Source of the DNA: Psychromonas antarctica
GTDB taxonomy: Bacteria > Pseudomonadota > Gammaproteobacteria > Enterobacterales > Psychromonadaceae
Reading direction: 5' to 3'
DNA: 60,081 nucleotides
NCBI RefSeq assembly: GCF_022267535.1
Contig: NZ_JAHNZV010000016.1
Location: 1-60,081 of the forward strand
The notes under the pieces: model-generated
Told to the model about the DNA's origin: nothing
The model's database searches: none
What the model saw: only the letters and a program-made list of their open reading frames with translations
Made by a program: the position numbers and the translations under genes
Shown here: piece after piece, positions 48,663 through 56,149 of the stretch
Position numbering within the stretch: the first letter of the stretch is position 1
Layout of the letters: the number at the start of each line of letters is the position of its first letter

Positions 48663-51600
48663 ATGGTTCAGCAAGCCTATTCTCTACTGCGAATTATTAT
48701 TATCGACAGTTTCTGGAAAGGTCAGGTTAATGAACTCGATTTAACTGGGCACACTCAACTTGAAGGCACCAACGGTGCGGGCAAAACTTCTTTAATGCGT
48801 TTGTTACCGCTATTTTATGGCATGCGACCGAGTGATATTGTCAGTAAGGTTGATCAAGCGAGGAATTTTGCCGATTATTATTTGCCACGCGATTCAAGTT
48901 TATTAGTGTATGAATACCAACGTCCCTATGGACAAACTTGTATGGTGCTGGCAAGCAGTGATGGCCGTAGTGTGCAATTTAAATTGATTGATGGATCTTA
49001 TAATAGCAGTTCATTTATTGGTGAAGACAAGCACCCATTAGCAGTCGCGGAGATTGAGCGTATTTATCGCAGTGCAGGCTGTTATTGCTCTAGTTATTTA
49101 GGTGTCGATAAATACCGACAAGTGATCCAAAATTTACGCAGTGGGCGCAAACTGAAAGATGTACGACAATTGCAAAGTCGTTTCGCATTTAGCGATTTGC
49201 CGACGCCGCATATTGATAAAGTAATTAATGGCACTATCGAAAAGAATCTCGATTTCGATGCGGTTAAACGTATGCTGGTGGCGATTTCCAGTGATCATCT
49301 GGCGCGAAATAGCATTGAAGAGAAAGAGCAGATAAGCCTTAATAAAGAGGATATTACTCATTGGTTAGCGGATATTCAGGCGAGCCGCGCCATCCAAAAA
49401 GTAGCTGAAAAAATTTCAATATGGCAGAGTGATTTTAATAATCTTGATAGCTTACTCATTAAATTGCAGCATCTGCATTTTGAAATCATTAATCATCAGC
49501 AAAAATTACAGACATTACAGGAGACACGTAAAGAGAGCAAAGAGGTCACCCGTAAAACATTAGATGAACTCGAAACCGAATTAAAAATCGGTGGCGAATC
49601 TTTACGTAAAGAAATGGCTAATATATTGGCCTTGATGGAGGCGGATCAGAGCCGCATTGATCTGCTTGATCAAGATAAACTGAATTATGATGATAATGAT
49701 GCCGCTAGTTTTCAGCTACAAGCGGATCAGGCGCCACGCATTCAGCAGCAGCTTAATGAAGTAAATGATGTCATTGAAGCCTTTGAAGGCAATATCAATA
49801 AAATTCAGCGCAAATTTGAAAAGTTAATACAAGACTTAACGCTGCAAAAAGTCACTGATGTGGCCGCTAATAGAGAACAATCTGCCTCGATTAAAGAATC
49901 TGCGAATGTGCAACTTAATGTGATCAGTGAATCTTACCAAGCACAGCTTGGACAGTTGAATGAATTATTAAACAGCACCTATTTAAAACTCAGTATGCAG
50001 CAACAAACGCTTGATAATCAGTTAGCTCAGGCCAGTCTAGCGCAACAAAACCCGATCATAGATGCTGAACTATTAATGGCGATTGAAGCCAATCAACATA
50101 ATTTAGCGCAAACCCATGAAACACAGATGCTTATTTTACAAAAAACTAATGAGCAAAATGAACATCTTGCGTTACTTGAAAAACAGCGGGAAAAACTGCT
50201 TGATAAGCATAAACAAGATAACCGTAATTTAGCGCTGCTAAAACAACAGTGTGCGGCGCTGGAATTGCAGCTGCTGCCCGAAGTCGGTTCGCTGCAATAC
50301 TACTTAAGCAATGAGCCGTTAGCTTGCCATTGGAAAGATAATATAGGGCGTTTATTATCTAGCGAACAAATGTCTCGCACTGATTTAGACCCTAGTTGGG
50401 GTGGGCAAAATGATAGTTTCTATGGTTTGCAATTGGATTTACAGCAACTGCAAGATAATGATTTGCAGCTTAATGAAAATGAGTTACGTGAAAAATTAAG
50501 CCATTTAGATAGCAAGAGGTTGATACTAAGCGAGCAAATAGCCGATCTTGATCAGCAACTTATTACTGCTAGCAAACAGATTGCAGCGCAAAAAATCACT
50601 ATTAGTGAAGTTAAGCAAACCCTTAAGCAAAGTGAATTAAAGCTAAGCCAACTTAATGTGCAAAAACAGAACCTTGTTGATAAAAAACAACGTGCGATAA
50701 AAGAGGCAAACCTCGCTGTTGAAATGCAGATTAAAGTCTTAAACAGTGATAAAAAGCAGATAACAAAAAAAATTGCAGCCTTTACAGAATCACAGCAAAC
50801 GCAAAAGTTTGAACTTAACACCTTAATGCTGGATCAACGCATGGTGGTGGAGTCGGATCGTGATAGCCAACTTGATCAACTTGAAGCACAGCTTGCTGCC
50901 ATTGAAGAAAGCGCGACTACGCGTTTACGTGATTATAAAAAACAGAAAAATAGCGCGCTTAGCGATCTCGACCCTGATGGTGAAGTAGATAAACGCAGTC
51001 GTGAGCGTAAAACGCTTGAGCTTGCTTTAGGTGAATGTGCCGTCTGGGCACGCAAGGCGCGAGAATATCAGCAGTTTATGAATGAGCGTTATGTGCATCG
51101 CGATAAACTGGTTGAGCTTAATCAAAACAGAGAAATAAAAAAACGGGGATTAGAAAATAACCTTGAAGATTTACTTGCTGAAAAAGGGCAGTTAATTGCG
51201 GTCAATCAAACGCTACTGAAAAAATTAACCACACAATTACGTGATAGTGATGATCTGTTAATACAGTTAAGTGAAAGCCAACGTTTGTGTGAAATGAGTG
51301 GCATTGCACCATTAACCAGTGAAACCGAACCTCATAATGAAGCGGATTTAGCCGTCAGTTTTTGTTTTGATTGGTTAAAGCAGTTTAAGAACGTTGAAAA
51401 ACGTTTAACGGAGCAACTTAACCGTTTTAATGAATCTTTTAGAAAAAATCATGCCGGCAGCGAACTCTTTGAAAACTGGCTTAAACTGGTGGCTGACAAT
51501 GATAATTATCAAGGTGCGAGAAGCCTTTTTAAATACCGTACCCCGATTGCCGACCTCCTGAGCTCTGCAGAGCAGAAACAAAAAAACACTTATCAGTTGG

Positions 51601-52355
51601 TGACGGTCAATGCCAACATGATTAATGAGTTCTATCAGCATATCGAAAACTTTGGGCGACGCATTAAAATTATTGGTAAGCAGCTTTCAACAAACGTCAC
51701 TGCCTTAGCGCATTTTGAAGCGCTGGCAGATATCAACGTTTATACCGTGATGAAACAGGAAGAGCTTGAATATTGGGGGCCTCTACAGCAATTCTCAAAA
51801 CTATTTGAGCTACATCGTGATGATTTACGTGAAGGGACCGGTGAAATTCCAGATGAACTTATCTATGCGATGCACAAGCTTTCTGCTTATCTGCCTAGTG
51901 ATGGCTTTGTATTGGCGCATAATAATCTCTTTGATATCGAATTCACTATTACCGAGAATGGGCAGTTAAAACACGCAAGAAATGCGCGTCAGTTGAAAAA
52001 AATAAGCTCAACCGGGCTTTCTTATCTGGCCATGTTATCTTTATTTGCGGGTATTTTAGGAATGTTACGGGGGTCTGGTGATACGCCTTCTGTGATTATT
52101 TTACCAGTCGATGAATTAGGTGAATTAGCGGCTGAAAACATTGATCAGTTATTGAAAATGTTTAATGAAAATAATATCTCCATGTTGTCCGCTTCTCCGT
52201 CAACGGATCGCCATATCCTTTCGCTTTACGATCGCCATTACAAATTAAAAGACAATAAAATTTACCATGCGGAAATACCGATATCACGTTTAGATGAGTT
52301 ATTAGCGCAACGTAAACAACAGAGCAGTGCACAGCAAACTGTGGAGGTTGAATAA
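48663..52355 (+). CDS. mksB: SMC-like ATPase, MksB/JetC type
   Basis: A 1230-residue SMC-type protein and the motor of the operon. Walker A EGTNGAGKTS is at 34-43. Long Gln/Leu/Lys-rich coiled coils span about 250-1000. The C-terminal head has an ISSTGLSYLA segment at 1114-1123, where SMC proteins carry the ABC signature, and Walker B VIILPVDE at 1144-1151. It is too divergent for Smc or MukB. With the MksE-, MksF- and Toprim-like proteins downstream it forms an MksBEFG/Wadjet-type condensin, a family known to cut small circular plasmids. The ATG overlaps nothing upstream; the 3' end abuts the next start by one base. Confidence 0.85.
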   Translation: MVQQAYSLLRIIIIDSFWKGQVNELDLTGHTQLEGTNGAGKTSLMRLLPLFYGMRPSDIVSKVDQARNFADYYLPRDSSLLVYEYQRPYGQTCMVLASSDGRSVQFKLIDGSYNSSSFIGEDKHPLAVAEIERIYRSAGCYCSSYLGVDKYRQVIQNLRSGRKLKDVRQLQSRFAFSDLPTPHIDKVINGTIEKNLDFDAVKRMLVAISSDHLARNSIEEKEQISLNKEDITHWLADIQASRAIQKVAEKISIWQSDFNNLDSLLIKLQHLHFEIINHQQKLQTLQETRKESKEVTRKTLDELETELKIGGESLRKEMANILALMEADQSRIDLLDQDKLNYDDNDAASFQLQADQAPRIQQQLNEVNDVIEAFEGNINKIQRKFEKLIQDLTLQKVTDVAANREQSASIKESANVQLNVISESYQAQLGQLNELLNSTYLKLSMQQQTLDNQLAQASLAQQNPIIDAELLMAIEANQHNLAQTHETQMLILQKTNEQNEHLALLEKQREKLLDKHKQDNRNLALLKQQCAALELQLLPEVGSLQYYLSNEPLACHWKDNIGRLLSSEQMSRTDLDPSWGGQNDSFYGLQLDLQQLQDNDLQLNENELREKLSHLDSKRLILSEQIADLDQQLITASKQIAAQKITISEVKQTLKQSELKLSQLNVQKQNLVDKKQRAIKEANLAVEMQIKVLNSDKKQITKKIAAFTESQQTQKFELNTLMLDQRMVVESDRDSQLDQLEAQLAAIEESATTRLRDYKKQKNSALSDLDPDGEVDKRSRERKTLELALGECAVWARKAREYQQFMNERYVHRDKLVELNQNREIKKRGLENNLEDLLAEKGQLIAVNQTLLKKLTTQLRDSDDLLIQLSESQRLCEMSGIAPLTSETEPHNEADLAVSFCFDWLKQFKNVEKRLTEQLNRFNESFRKNHAGSELFENWLKLVADNDNYQGARSLFKYRTPIADLLSSAEQKQKNTYQLVTVNANMINEFYQHIENFGRRIKIIGKQLSTNVTALAHFEALADINVYTVMKQEELEYWGPLQQFSKLFELHRDDLREGTGEIPDELIYAMHKLSAYLPSDGFVLAHNNLFDIEFTITENGQLKHARNARQLKKISSTGLSYLAMLSLFAGILGMLRGSGDTPSVIILPVDELGELAAENIDQLLKMFNENNISMLSASPSTDRHILSLYDRHYKLKDNKIYHAEIPISRLDELLAQRKQQSSAQQTVEVE

Positions 52356-52978
52356 TGTTTAAACAGACTGTACAAAAACTATTAACCGGCGCTATTATCT
52401 GCGAAACGGCGTTTGCTGACGAATATGAATATCTACAAGCCAATGATAATAGTCAACGTGTAAACGATTTTTTAGGGAATTTAGACAGAAATTTAACCTA
52501 CCTTGACAGCGCCGATGCGTTTTACTGTACTTTTCAGCAAGTTGATCAAAGTAATAGTGCGGAATTAAGCGTTTTGTTTAGCGAGGTGCGCAGTAGTTTT
52601 CGTCCATTAGTTGAGTTTTTAGAGCTGTTACTGACGGTCAGTCAAACGGATCTGCCTCTGCATGCAAAATCGGTAGTGAATATTAACGAGTTGTTCGATC
52701 CCTTTGAACATGACCAAACCTTACGTGAGCATTTGCGCCACTTAACCTCTATCAAACCTTTTAAAAGCAATAAATTAGAAACCCGTGAGCAGTTAGTTTT
52801 TGTATTTCAAAAGCTCGAAGAGATGGGCTATTTAGTGCGTAAAAACATCGGTAGTAGCCGTTATTATGGCACCGCACGTTTTGATATTATCTATCTGTTA
52901 ATCGAGTTTCTAAACGATTCTGAACGTGTTGAACTGCCGGAAAATGATCAGCAGCAACAAGAGGAGTTGCTCTTTTAA
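52355..52978 (+). CDS. mksE: MksE/JetB-like condensin subunit
   Basis: A 207-residue protein with winged-helix character: a helical N-terminal half, then LETREQLVFVFQKLEEMGYLV followed by a wing and FDIIYLLIEFL. Kite-type MksE subunits have this size and content. The start shares one base with the SMC stop and the stop overlaps the next ATG, so it is made in ratio with its partners. The assignment rests on size, position and fold impression more than on a conserved motif. Confidence 0.65.
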   Translation: MFKQTVQKLLTGAIICETAFADEYEYLQANDNSQRVNDFLGNLDRNLTYLDSADAFYCTFQQVDQSNSAELSVLFSEVRSSFRPLVEFLELLLTVSQTDLPLHAKSVVNINELFDPFEHDQTLREHLRHLTSIKPFKSNKLETREQLVFVFQKLEEMGYLVRKNIGSSRYYGTARFDIIYLLIEFLNDSERVELPENDQQQQEELLF

Positions 52979-54228
52979 TGGCGGGATATGATGTAGGCGA
53001 TGTTGCTGAATTACTAAAACAGATCGGTAGCAATGGACAGTTGTTAGCAGATGCTTATGTATATGGTTCGATTGCCGGCGATCAGCTCGATGCGGGTAAA
53101 CTTAATTTACTCCAGAAAAAAGGTTTGTTGCGGCCTGATGATGAGCCCGGTGATTACCGTGTAACCGCTGAATTAAAACGTATGCTCAATCGTTTGATGC
53201 GTAAGCAGAGCAGCTATCGGCAACTAACCGATATGGGGAAAGTGATCGATATCTTAGATGATACGGTTAACGATTTTCAGCTATCGGTGCAAAGCAATCA
53301 GCATGAAGATGCTGAATATTACTTGGATCAATTAGACGATCTTCTTTATGAAGCAAAAGACAATCTCAATGTCAGTTTAGATAATATGCATTATGCTATC
53401 TCCAGTCAGTTTGGTTTTGTCAGTACCTTAAGTGCTAAGGTCCGCGAAAACGAAAAAGCGCTAGATTATGCACAAAAACTTTTGACCGAGTTGCAGCAGA
53501 TAGATCCCGAAGCCTGTTATGAGTGGACAAATTGGGCTGCGCCCGTTGATTTCACTCGAAAAATAAGTGGCTTTATCTACTGGTTTAATCAAACGTTGGC
53601 ACGCTTGCGTTTTATTATCGACAATATGCGCCTGAGTTTATTTAGGTTACGCCGTGATGAAAAACAGGCCAGCCTACTGCGTAATATGGCGCGTTATCTG
53701 CGTAAACATCCTGAATTTGAAATTAGCGATGCACTGTTTGAAGATCCCAGCTTAAATGAAAAGTTAAAGTTTGCCGCACCGCTTAAGCTTAAATGTTATG
53801 TAGATATTAAAGACAGTGCGGTAGAAGAGCCGCTGTTCGCATTAGTGCAATCATTGCGTAAGCAAACTAAACCAACCGCTATTAATCCGCGTGAAGTGGG
53901 TACTGTTGAGATTAAGCCTATCGAGCGAGTGGTTGTTGAACCGGATTATTTTGGAGAGCAAACAGAATTATTGTTTGAACTGGCCATTACCACAGGTGAG
54001 TCTATTTCGGCTATCGGTTATTGGCAGAGTGAGTTGCAAAACTGGTCGCAAAGCGCACAAACAATCGAGCCTAAAGCTTGGATTGAACTGGTGTTTAGCA
54101 GTTATTGCAAATTGACACTTGAGCAGCAGGCCGCTTTAGATATCAAAATGGCAGGCATACTTGTCTCTGGTACTTCTGATAATTACAGTTACAGTGATCT
54201 GCGCATTGTTTTAAAAGAAAGCCACTAG
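52978..54228 (+). CDS. mksF: MksF/JetA-like kleisin subunit
   Basis: A 416-residue soluble protein. An N-terminal winged-helix-like region (about 1-75) is followed by long helices with heptad character (about 75-240), a linker near 300 and a C-terminal beta-rich, wHTH-like domain. This suits the kleisin of an MksBEF complex that bridges the two SMC heads. It overlaps the mksE-like stop by one base. It is shorter than the usual JetA. Confidence 0.6.
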   Translation: MAGYDVGDVAELLKQIGSNGQLLADAYVYGSIAGDQLDAGKLNLLQKKGLLRPDDEPGDYRVTAELKRMLNRLMRKQSSYRQLTDMGKVIDILDDTVNDFQLSVQSNQHEDAEYYLDQLDDLLYEAKDNLNVSLDNMHYAISSQFGFVSTLSAKVRENEKALDYAQKLLTELQQIDPEACYEWTNWAAPVDFTRKISGFIYWFNQTLARLRFIIDNMRLSLFRLRRDEKQASLLRNMARYLRKHPEFEISDALFEDPSLNEKLKFAAPLKLKCYVDIKDSAVEEPLFALVQSLRKQTKPTAINPREVGTVEIKPIERVVVEPDYFGEQTELLFELAITTGESISAIGYWQSELQNWSQSAQTIEPKAWIELVFSSYCKLTLEQQAALDIKMAGILVSGTSDNYSYSDLRIVLKESH

Positions 54229-54253
54229 CAAAAGAAAATTTGCACAGGTAAGC

Positions 54254-55114
54254 ATGAATAAAGCACTCTATATTTTCTGCCAAGCAAAATTTAGAACCCT
54301 ACACAAGGGTAAGTTAAAACTGTCGAGCTTATTAAGCCGTTTAAATGATGATTATGGTTTTGGCTTGATTGACGGCAATTATCTCTATTTCACGGAAAAA
54401 GATAGGGCTTCTCTGATTGAGCGGGTGCAATTGGAAAATTGTTTGCATCTTTTTCGCGATCTCTACCCAGAGGCGCAAAGCCGTGCATTGACTGCAAAAG
54501 TACAGCGTAATGAAAAAACCAATAGTTATACAGTCAGCCAAGATTTTATTTTGCTCAATAGCTTACAGACGATGCAACTTAATAAGCAACAATTTCAGGG
54601 TAATCCTTTTACTTCATTAGGTATGTATCTCAAAGCGGATGAAATCATTTCTGTTGAACATCCGCAGATTGTGCTGGTCGAAAATTTGACCATTATGGCT
54701 AACTTGCATGCGTTAGTGATTCCAGCTTCGCTGCGTAGTGCGTTATGGCTTTATCGTGGCGATTTTAAAAAGCAGCAGCAAACAAGTTGTGCTTATCAGT
54801 TTTTCCGTCGTTTTAGAGAAACCAATCAGTTAATCTGTTTTAGTGATTTAGATCCTGCGGGCATACAAATAGCGCTAACTTGTGATGCTCATTATTGGTT
54901 AACACCGCAAGACAGCGGCGTTATCAATATGGCATTACAGGGTGAAGAAAATGAATGGTTTAATCAGCAATCTGCTATCCGTTATCTACAAGATAGATCT
55001 GCCCTTCCTAAAAAGTGCCAAGATGCCTTGGCGCAGATGATGCTCAGTCGCAAAACCTTAAAACAAGAGCAGATGCTGGCTCATCATATCCAGCTGGCAT
55101 TATTTAAACTGTAG
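54254..55114 (+). CDS. mksG: Toprim nuclease subunit, MksG/JetD-like
   Basis: A 286-residue protein whose C-terminal half has the Toprim core: Glu143 in VLVENLTIM, WLYRGDF with Gly169-Asp170, and Asp198/Asp200 in CFSDLDPAG. In Wadjet, JetD supplies the DNA-cleaving activity after the SMC complex extrudes a small circle. The usual JetD is about 100 residues longer; here the N-terminal arm is short. It lies 25 bases after the MksF-like gene in the same transcript. Confidence 0.78.
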   Translation: MNKALYIFCQAKFRTLHKGKLKLSSLLSRLNDDYGFGLIDGNYLYFTEKDRASLIERVQLENCLHLFRDLYPEAQSRALTAKVQRNEKTNSYTVSQDFILLNSLQTMQLNKQQFQGNPFTSLGMYLKADEIISVEHPQIVLVENLTIMANLHALVIPASLRSALWLYRGDFKKQQQTSCAYQFFRRFRETNQLICFSDLDPAGIQIALTCDAHYWLTPQDSGVINMALQGEENEWFNQQSAIRYLQDRSALPKKCQDALAQMMLSRKTLKQEQMLAHHIQLALFKL

Positions 55115-55177: not shown

Positions 55178-56149
55178 ATGCGCGTTGCAGCAACTTCAGA
55201 AAAAGCACGACAGGTGATGGTACTACTGACTCAGATTCAGAAACAATTTGTTCAGCAGTTAATTACTATGAGTACTCAAGCGGGCAAGCCCAATGCCTTT
55301 GAAAAGGTAGAGTGGTTACGTGATAAAGGTGAACATGGTGGTGGCTTGCGTTATCAGCTAGCCGTGACAGGCCTATTTAGTCGAGCTTCAGTGAATGTCT
55401 CGCAGGTTCATTTTGAATATAGTGATGATAAAAAATTCACCGTCGCAACCGCATTATCGACCATTGTCCATCCGGCACATCCGTGCCTTCCTTCACTTCA
55501 TCTGCATATCAGTTGGACATTACTTAAAAATGGTCAGAGTTACTGGCGAATAATGGCGGATTTAAATCCGGCTATCGTCGATCTTAGCGATAAACAAACC
55601 TTTGATAATGCGCTTCGTGTTGCTGCCGCTGAGTATTATGCGCAGGGCTGTGCATTGGGTGAACAGTATTTTAATATTCCTGCCTTGGCTGTACATCGTG
55701 GTGTCAGTCATTTCTATCTTGAAGGCTTCAACCCCGATTGTGCTGAATTTCTAGCATTTCCCAGTAATTTTGCGGAGACGATGATCAATGCTTATACGGA
55801 AATAATTAGTGATAAATCAAAGCGGGTAAAGGCAAAAACTAAAGAGCAGGTAAATACTCAATTGGCTTACCACACTCTTTATTTTTATCAGGTGCTCACT
55901 CTAGATAGAGGCACGACTGCTGGGTTATTAGCCCATGATCAGAATGATCTGGGTACATTAGGATCTTTGCCTGCCTATATCAGTCGCGATCTGCTAAGTC
56001 GTTGGATTGCAAAAACCGTCGCACCTAAAGATAAATTAATTACCGCCTTGTTAGCTATTTTTCCAAATACCAATCGATGTGCCGTAACAGAAAAAGAAAA
56101 ACGACAGATAGCGAAAATCATACGTGATTTTTATAAAATACATAGATAA
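55178..56149 (+). CDS. Divergent HemF-like protein
   Basis: A 323-residue soluble protein that resembles aerobic coproporphyrinogen III oxidase in order and length: VEWLRDKGEHGGGLRYQL, STIVHPAHPCLPSLHLHI, HRGVSHFYLEGFN, and TLDRGTTAGL near the C-terminus. The histidines of the VHP and SLH segments are kept. The usual WWFGGGxDLTP is replaced by WRIMADLNPAI, and I see no equivalent of the third metal histidine. Enzyme activity is doubtful. It starts 63 bases after the Toprim gene on the same strand and could be part of that transcript, although functional linkage is unproven. Confidence 0.65.
   Translation: MRVAATSEKARQVMVLLTQIQKQFVQQLITMSTQAGKPNAFEKVEWLRDKGEHGGGLRYQLAVTGLFSRASVNVSQVHFEYSDDKKFTVATALSTIVHPAHPCLPSLHLHISWTLLKNGQSYWRIMADLNPAIVDLSDKQTFDNALRVAAAEYYAQGCALGEQYFNIPALAVHRGVSHFYLEGFNPDCAEFLAFPSNFAETMINAYTEIISDKSKRVKAKTKEQVNTQLAYHTLYFYQVLTLDRGTTAGLLAHDQNDLGTLGSLPAYISRDLLSRWIAKTVAPKDKLITALLAIFPNTNRCAVTEKEKRQIAKIIRDFYKIHR

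Follow-up and report, generated by a model that had tools for sequence, protein, structure and literature searches.

A Wadjet-like operon with its SMC gene first encodes the only SMC-kleisin-type complex detected in Psychromonas

We analyzed a stretch of 60,081 nucleotides from Psychromonas antarctica (contig NZ_JAHNZV010000016.1 of assembly GCF_022267535.1; the whole stretch is termed the window), in which an earlier note made from the sequence alone had pointed to four coupled genes for a structural maintenance of chromosomes (SMC) ATPase, an MksE-like, an MksF-like and a Toprim protein, here designated B, E, F and G. The operon was found to be Wadjet-like and to lie outside the types I to III modelled by PADLOC. 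No SMC-kleisin-type complex other than B-E-F was detected in Psychromonas, as no full-length MukB, ScpA or canonical SMC was found in the genomes tested. We give about an even chance to the reading that the four subunits form an SMC machine that works like Wadjet/MksBEFG and that in Psychromonas is most likely also the resident chromosome condensin. The more specific proposal of an 'armed condensin', in which a Wadjet-like SMC complex replaces SMC-ScpAB/MukBEF in this genus and usually keeps its plasmid-cutting subunit, is put forward tentatively, with slightly less confidence.

B was detected in 24 of 24 Psychromonas genomes (in one of these it is cut by a contig end) and G in 22; the other two, G187 and G342 (G and L numbers are our labels for genomes and loci), retained B-E-F and had no match anywhere to PF23947, the family of G. 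Full-length MukB (PF04310) was found in 0/24 of these genomes, with a single weak match (8e-5) in a frame of 544 amino acids (aa) in G125. Neither component sought of SMC-ScpAB was found: ScpA was detected in none of the 13 genus genomes tested (11 were left out of this search) and a canonical SMC (PF02463-type, about 1150 aa) in none of the 21 tested, which comprised the window's own genome and 20 others at E <= 1e-15 and excluded G094, G151 and G164. The frames returned by the SMC search in the genus had the size of RecF (359-376 aa) or of RecN (559-602 aa), apart from frames of 544, 449 and 431 aa; the names RecF and RecN were assigned by size and search profile, with few sequences read. 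The same search detected SMC frames in G001 (1171 aa), G075 (1153 aa) and G096 (1046 aa). The latter two had been considered as further condensin-less carriers and were rejected, as they have no ScpA match but do have these SMC frames. PF13558 gave one strong match each in 21 of the 24 genus genomes, in frames of 1231-1271 aa (SbcC-size), and none in three; six genomes had weak matches, in frames about 300 aa long. Among the 21 SbcC-size frames the sequence was read for the window's genome, and this match we take to be SbcC-like from its LSGGE motif and CPLC hook.

We compared the divergence of the operon with that of core genes. Distances for B, E, F and G correlated with those for RecN (Mantel r 0.91, 0.88, 0.86 and 0.85 with 20, 20, 20 and 18 genomes, respectively; p 0.0005 each), and distances for B, F and G with those for RecF (r 0.85, 0.83 and 0.82). 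Rates relative to RecN were 1.55 (B), 0.94 (E), 1.37 (F) and 3.61 (G) times. The ratio of nonsynonymous to synonymous substitution rates (dN/dS) in eight close genus pairs was 0.009-0.107 for the B, E and F genes; for G it was 0.07-0.24 (seven pairs with a value, one undefined). Values in four pairs of other clades were similar. G distances exceeded those of F in every clade compared, with a median ratio of 2.3 in the genus and 1.6-4.2 elsewhere. A relaxation of G peculiar to Psychromonas was therefore rejected, since G is faster than F in all clades and has kept purifying selection. Split genes (B of G096, pEhorm and pVcamp; F of pVcamp and G345) were omitted from the distance alignments, as were B of G345, G of G078 and F of G139. 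The alignments A2 (30 rows), A3 (29), A4 (29) and A1 (14) were our own selections; E of pAzosp, missed by the open reading frame (ORF) caller, was added to A2. In G078 no F was found, and the 541-aa frame that contains G, a possible F-G fusion, was not used.

In a quick tree built from B, a single cluster (support 99) united the rows of the genus with G182, a member of another family, and the G-less genomes G187 and G342 were placed on separate branches, each beside G-bearing rows. G182 (family f6) carries a Psychromonas-like B-E-F-G at locus L049, which lies within the genus cluster with weak inner support and was probably acquired by horizontal transfer. G342 is Psychromonas sp. CD1, whose 1.69 Mb genome from an amphipod gut is called 99.3% complete in PMC5893861, where the comparison genomes in the table are of 3.3-5.5 Mb; its completeness figure in the genome listing is 79. 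The idea that the operon is only an accessory plasmid-restricting subtype is not supported by these data, as B is universal in the genus and tracks core genes, no second SMC-kleisin complex was found, and the nuclease is the part that is lost.

The four genes are genuine and not chance ORFs, as B and G match PF12128 (1117 bits, across the whole model) and PF23947 (153 bits) and dN/dS is low in 12 hand-picked close pairs of relatives (B, E and F, 0.00-0.11; G, 0.07-0.26 with one value undefined). By the same family search the window's E and F had no significant match. The coordinates bear out four same-strand coupled genes in the order first noted (Table 1), with overlaps of 1 base at B/E and at E/F and a gap of 25 bases between F and G. 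As to the four assignments, the SMC, the kite and the JetD-type Toprim nuclease stand, and the kleisin is a probable one, proposed from gene position and from a model of low confidence, as described below.

B is an SMC ATPase of the JetC/MukB kind by its PF12128 match and by a match of its C-terminal head to a JetC profile (probability 93%, E 2.5e-7). The SMC identity that had been proposed is upheld. The genome encodes SbcC separately from B, and likewise a frame of RecN size. In PADLOC 2023 B had no JetC match and only a weak mad8 match, and JetC matches were found in only 2 of 14 members; PF04310, the MukB N-terminal family, matched neither B nor anything else in the window's genome. Besides the Walker A octamer of the window, GTNASGKT was found in 18 of 53 rows and other forms in 3. 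The SSTG at the position of the ABC (ATP-binding cassette) signature, which the earlier note had regarded as an oddity, is present; it is normal for the family. S-S-x-G was found in 52/53 rows (T1117 in 32/53), and a degenerate or defective signature was thus rejected, as this is the family's own. MukB has an STG-type signature.

E was identified as a kite subunit, as its relatives match the MksE/JetB families and its predicted fold agrees. Among 30 aligned E members, 18 matched MksE (best 1.3e-9) and 11 matched DUF4194; the window's own E matched neither and had no match in PADLOC. A structural model of E (predicted local distance difference test, pLDDT, 75.7) gave E. coli JetABC chain C as top fold match (E 1.7e-4, template modelling score 0.36), followed by two PA14 JetABC chains and then by MukE chains (ranks 4-15). 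Direct comparison of E with a JetB profile was weak (probability 41%, E 2.8e-4), and by hhalign no match to MukE was obtained.

F is most likely a kleisin, as suggested by its position between kite and nuclease and by the layout of its model. The model (pLDDT 60.8, low confidence) has terminal winged-helix-like parts and long helices, with residues 250-322 poorly predicted. By Foldseek the third hit was a MukBEF chain (E 0.29) and the 31st a JetABCD chain (E 1.0), none of them significant. At 416 aa F is shorter than 14 JetA references (473-551 aa), as the earlier note had it for the kleisin, but close in length to 10 MukF (440-500 aa).

G is predicted to be a compact JetD-type Toprim endonuclease. 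PADLOC models JetD1 (E 1e-5) and JetD3 (E 3e-3) matched G, and by hhalign G aligned with classical JetD over the Toprim part only (probability 95%, E 3.9e-8). R77, K88, E143, N144, R168, G169, D198, D200, G203 and Q271 were invariant in 54/54 rows, which include the Glu143, Asp198 and Asp200 that had been singled out as retained; the E-N, D-x-D-x-x-G and Q-E motifs are shared by 90% or more of the JetD set. G is shorter than 12 JetD references (286 versus 375-439 aa). By alignment, in which residue 122 of G pairs with residue 252 of the first JetD, about 130 residues are absent ahead of the Toprim part; these may correspond to the N-terminal arm of about 100 residues that the earlier note found lacking. 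Solved structures were also searched by sequence, with single proteins as well as profiles, and nothing significant was returned (G profile versus MksG 8b7f, E 0.68). A genome contig scan with G alone as query led nowhere, nor did viral contig scans with B and with alignment A1. A distant SMC relative (23.7% identity over 44% of the Azospira query) was observed in Dolichospermum phage Dfl-JY45 (PP438435.1, 88341-90509).

Table 1. Features of the operon, in positions of the window.
Feature	Coordinates	Strand	Size or conservation
B: SMC ATPase, PF12128/DUF3584	48663..52355	+	1230 aa
E: kite (MksE/JetB-like)	52355..52978	+	207 aa
F: probable kleisin	52978..54228	+	416 aa
G: compact JetD/MksG-type Toprim nuclease (predicted), PF23947/DUF7281	54254..55114	+	286 aa
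B Walker A GTNGAGKT (residues 35-42)	48765..48788	+	same octamer in 32/53 rows
B signature SSTG (residues 1115-1118)	52005..52016	+	S1116, G1118 in 53/53 rows
B Walker B acidic pair D1150-E1151	52110..52115	+	each in 53/53 rows
G predicted catalytic Glu143	54680..54682	+	54/54 rows
G predicted catalytic Asp198-x-Asp200	54845..54853	+	each in 54/54 rows

Among the flanking genes tested, the upstream one encodes a ROK-family kinase and the downstream one a divergent protein of the HemF family. The latter, a 323-aa protein at 55178-56149 of the window, scored 83.6 bits with Coprogen_oxidas and only 85.5 of the 297 bits required by the HemF equivalog, and is a divergent HemF-like paralogue.

Gene order was surveyed across the taxonomic order with G as seed, and the loci covered outside the genus are therefore those with G. 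PF23947 was detected in 47 of 197 genomes sampled from the order, 44 above cut-off, and the stretches around the matches were taken; to these we added other loci of the genus and three from plasmids, and B, E, F and G were labelled by iterated profiles. Among 58 loci with member genes, 47 were BEFG, four BEF and two BBEFG, with one each of BEFFG, BBEFFG, BFG, BEG and FG (doubled letters denote genes split over two ORFs). The E absent from the BFG locus was missed by the ORF caller and is annotated there. Hence 51 of the 58 loci were B-E-F-G or B-E-F and the other seven were split or incomplete versions of the same order, such that the SMC-first order proposed earlier is borne out as a conserved arrangement. 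BEFG was present in Ferrimonas senticii, F. futtsuensis and one Methylobacter metagenome-assembled genome, and BEF in Psychromonas sp. CD1. Of the four BEF loci, those of G187 and G342 are G-less, that of G111 lies on a contig that ends within G, and G344 has its G farther along the contig. Several genes, including kbl-/tdh-like ones as judged by their starts, stand between B-E-F and the nuclease at L147 (G110) and at L142 and L161 (G344), and those of G344 are much like the row found between F and G in G110. Overlap or abutment was found for B-E in 50/56, E-F in 54/55 and F-G in 25/53 cases, and G is thus the loosest member of the operon. The weaker PF23947 matches L077-L080 were not operon members as far as tested: L078-L080, compared by phmmer alone, gave no match and were left out of labelling, and L077 obtained no label when run. 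L077 (771-6260) has another gene order, with proteins of 419 aa, 204 aa (JetB-like), 917 aa (SMC-like) and 287 aa (PF23947-like nuclease), and no JetA or JetD match in PADLOC. No paper was recognized in our literature search as describing the SMC-first order; the 2011 MksBEF paper (PubMed 21752107) was outside this search, and an earlier description is possible.

Within the order sample, G exceeded the cut-off in 12 of 13 Psychromonas genomes and in 32 of the 184 from outside the genus (Fisher p 4.5e-8, which ignores relatedness). Outside the genus, G was found in 29/87 genomes with ScpA only, 1/61 with MukB only, 0/8 with both and 2/28 with neither (G075 and G096, which have the SMC frames given above). 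Strong matches to both MukB and ScpA were observed in eight genomes of genus g35, family f25 (G047, G067, G116, G129, G142, G155, G179 and G190). Relatives of the operon were also found on plasmids. On an Azospira plasmid (L034, 6354-24555) a type IV CRISPR-Cas locus lies a few kb away from the operon. An Enterobacter hormaechei plasmid (L033, 4973-12723) has the operon within a Tn7-like element, close to SAVED/ThiF-type genes resembling those of cyclic-oligonucleotide-based anti-phage signalling systems (CBASS-like), with the SMC gene interrupted by ISSod4. In the copy on a Vibrio campbellii MobH plasmid (L032, 6281-12723) the SMC gene and the F gene each span two ORFs. When plasmid records were searched with the Azospira proteins, G was matched in 14 and B in 13 of these; in the 13, G followed B on the same strand, and every record was at least 107 kb. 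Circles above about 100 kb are reported to escape Wadjet (PMC10586767, section 4), with which the size of these records fits, and large plasmids are also likelier to carry a 6-kb operon. The notion of a separate plasmid-restricting subtype is thus sustained in part: the order and gene set are outside PADLOC 2023, and three plasmid relatives stand in mobile or defence-like settings.

Based on homology, B would act as the ATPase motor, E as the kite, F most likely as the kleisin and G as the JetD-type Toprim endonuclease. B-E-F may extrude DNA, and G may cut a small circle once it is fully extruded, as described for Wadjet in sections 4 and 7 of PMC10586767. G would be located next to F, because in C. 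glutamicum MksG is a binding partner of the kleisin (PMC10123090). In Psychromonas the B-E-F core would also organize the chromosome, and G would be a fast-evolving and sometimes lost weapon. We infer the condensin role because B is universal, B-E-F evolves near the core-gene rate and outlasts the loss of G, and no alternative was detected. The kleisin assignment, loop extrusion, plasmid cleavage and chromosome organization are all predictions from sequence.

Several observations weigh against this reading of a Wadjet-like machine that is also the resident condensin. First-look candidates were scored incompletely in some searches (78 scored of up to 116 per genome for SMC; 13 scored of up to 36 for MukB in 13 genus genomes and the order). 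PF13558 matched 5/5 classical JetC and missed a 917-aa SMC-like protein and DUF3584 members, and a divergent condensin in Psychromonas could escape it. In family f3 (G050, G132 and G192) no strong MukB or ScpA match was found and frames of 1187-1249 aa had weak PF04310 matches, which reveals that profile misses happen. Absence of both the MukB and ScpA profiles is by itself not rare, being seen also in 28 non-genus genomes of the order. The dN/dS of B, E and F is low in ScpA-bearing clades as well, so conservation alone does not prove a condensin. Outside the genus G is patchy and mostly accessory beside ordinary condensins. Finally, F had no significant family, profile or fold match, and hhalign returned no match to JetA or MukF.

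Alternatively, the operon may serve only in restriction of plasmids and mobile elements. Psychromonas would then either have a divergent condensin or lack an SMC condensin altogether, and the conservation would reflect long vertical residence of a useful defence locus. We regard this as a serious possibility that falls clearly short of even. The settings of the three plasmid relatives, the patchiness outside the genus and the Psychromonas-like copy in G182 favor it, as does the faster divergence of G than F in every clade, which an arms race would give. It accounts less well for the presence of B in 24/24 genus genomes versus G in 32/184 elsewhere with no alternative condensin found, and for the retention of B-E-F where G was lost, in one case from a strongly reduced genome. 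The converse, in which the complex is only a condensin in Psychromonas and G, instead of cutting plasmids, is either vestigial or helps decatenation in the manner of a topoisomerase, would be consistent with the two losses of G, with its position several genes from F in G110 and G344, and with the Toprim domain that it has in common with topoisomerase VI (PMC10586767, section 4). It is improbable, however, given catalytic residues that are invariant in the 22 genus rows as in all others and the purifying selection on G in seven genus pairs. An unrelated repair or SbcC/RecN-like ATPase module could be proposed from the lack of a significant match for F and of PADLOC JetB/JetC matches for the window's E and B, but is very improbable in view of the kite fold and MksE relatives of E, the JetC profile match of B, the JetD profile match of G, and the separate SbcC and RecN-size genes.

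If Psychromonas does use this Wadjet-like complex as its condensin, the genus would represent an extant stage on the way from plasmid defence to chromosome condensin, and in G187 and the reduced CD1 the weapon would have been dropped independently, as two end points. Section 7 of PMC10586767 speculates that chromosome condensins, MukBEF and MksBEF among them, descend from Wadjet defence complexes, and a genus in which no SMC-kleisin-type complex was found besides a nuclease-bearing Wadjet-like one, together with nuclease-less members, would make this idea directly testable. It would also pose the question of how a condensin that acts on the chromosome can carry an endonuclease without destroying that chromosome.

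Compared to known systems, the operon is most like Wadjet types I-III (JetABCD/MksBEFG/EptABCD), with which it shares the four-gene make-up: an SMC of the DUF3584/JetC-like kind, a kite resembling JetB/MksE, what is probably a kleisin, and a Toprim nuclease of the JetD type that carries the E-N and D-x-D-x-x-G motifs. The profile searches agree, as JetD models match G, E of 18 of the 30 aligned members matches MksE and B matches the JetC profile. By contrast, when the window was compared to PADLOC 2023 only JetD models matched, with no JetA, JetB or JetC match, and the order is SMC-kite-F-nuclease instead of the kleisin-kite-SMC-nuclease that defines types I-III, is seen in the jet reference loci and is given as mksFEBG in PMC10123090. 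The nuclease is shorter before its Toprim part, and B is universal in one genus. From MukBEF the operon differs in gene order, in a B without PF04310, and in an F and E without MukF or MukE profile matches, yet the E model finds MukE chains right behind JetABC chains and F is near MukF in length. The B-E-F of G187 and G342 resembles the nuclease-less MksBEF condensin of Pseudomonas aeruginosa. MksBEF is described as sporadic and usually found together with SMC-ScpAB or MukBEF (PMC7485682), unlike B in Psychromonas, which is present throughout the genus with no such partner found. The compact nuclease and the SMC-first order, not reported as a set by PADLOC 2023, add a branch to these systems and are of modest novelty; the interesting part is the likely status of the complex as sole condensin of a genus.

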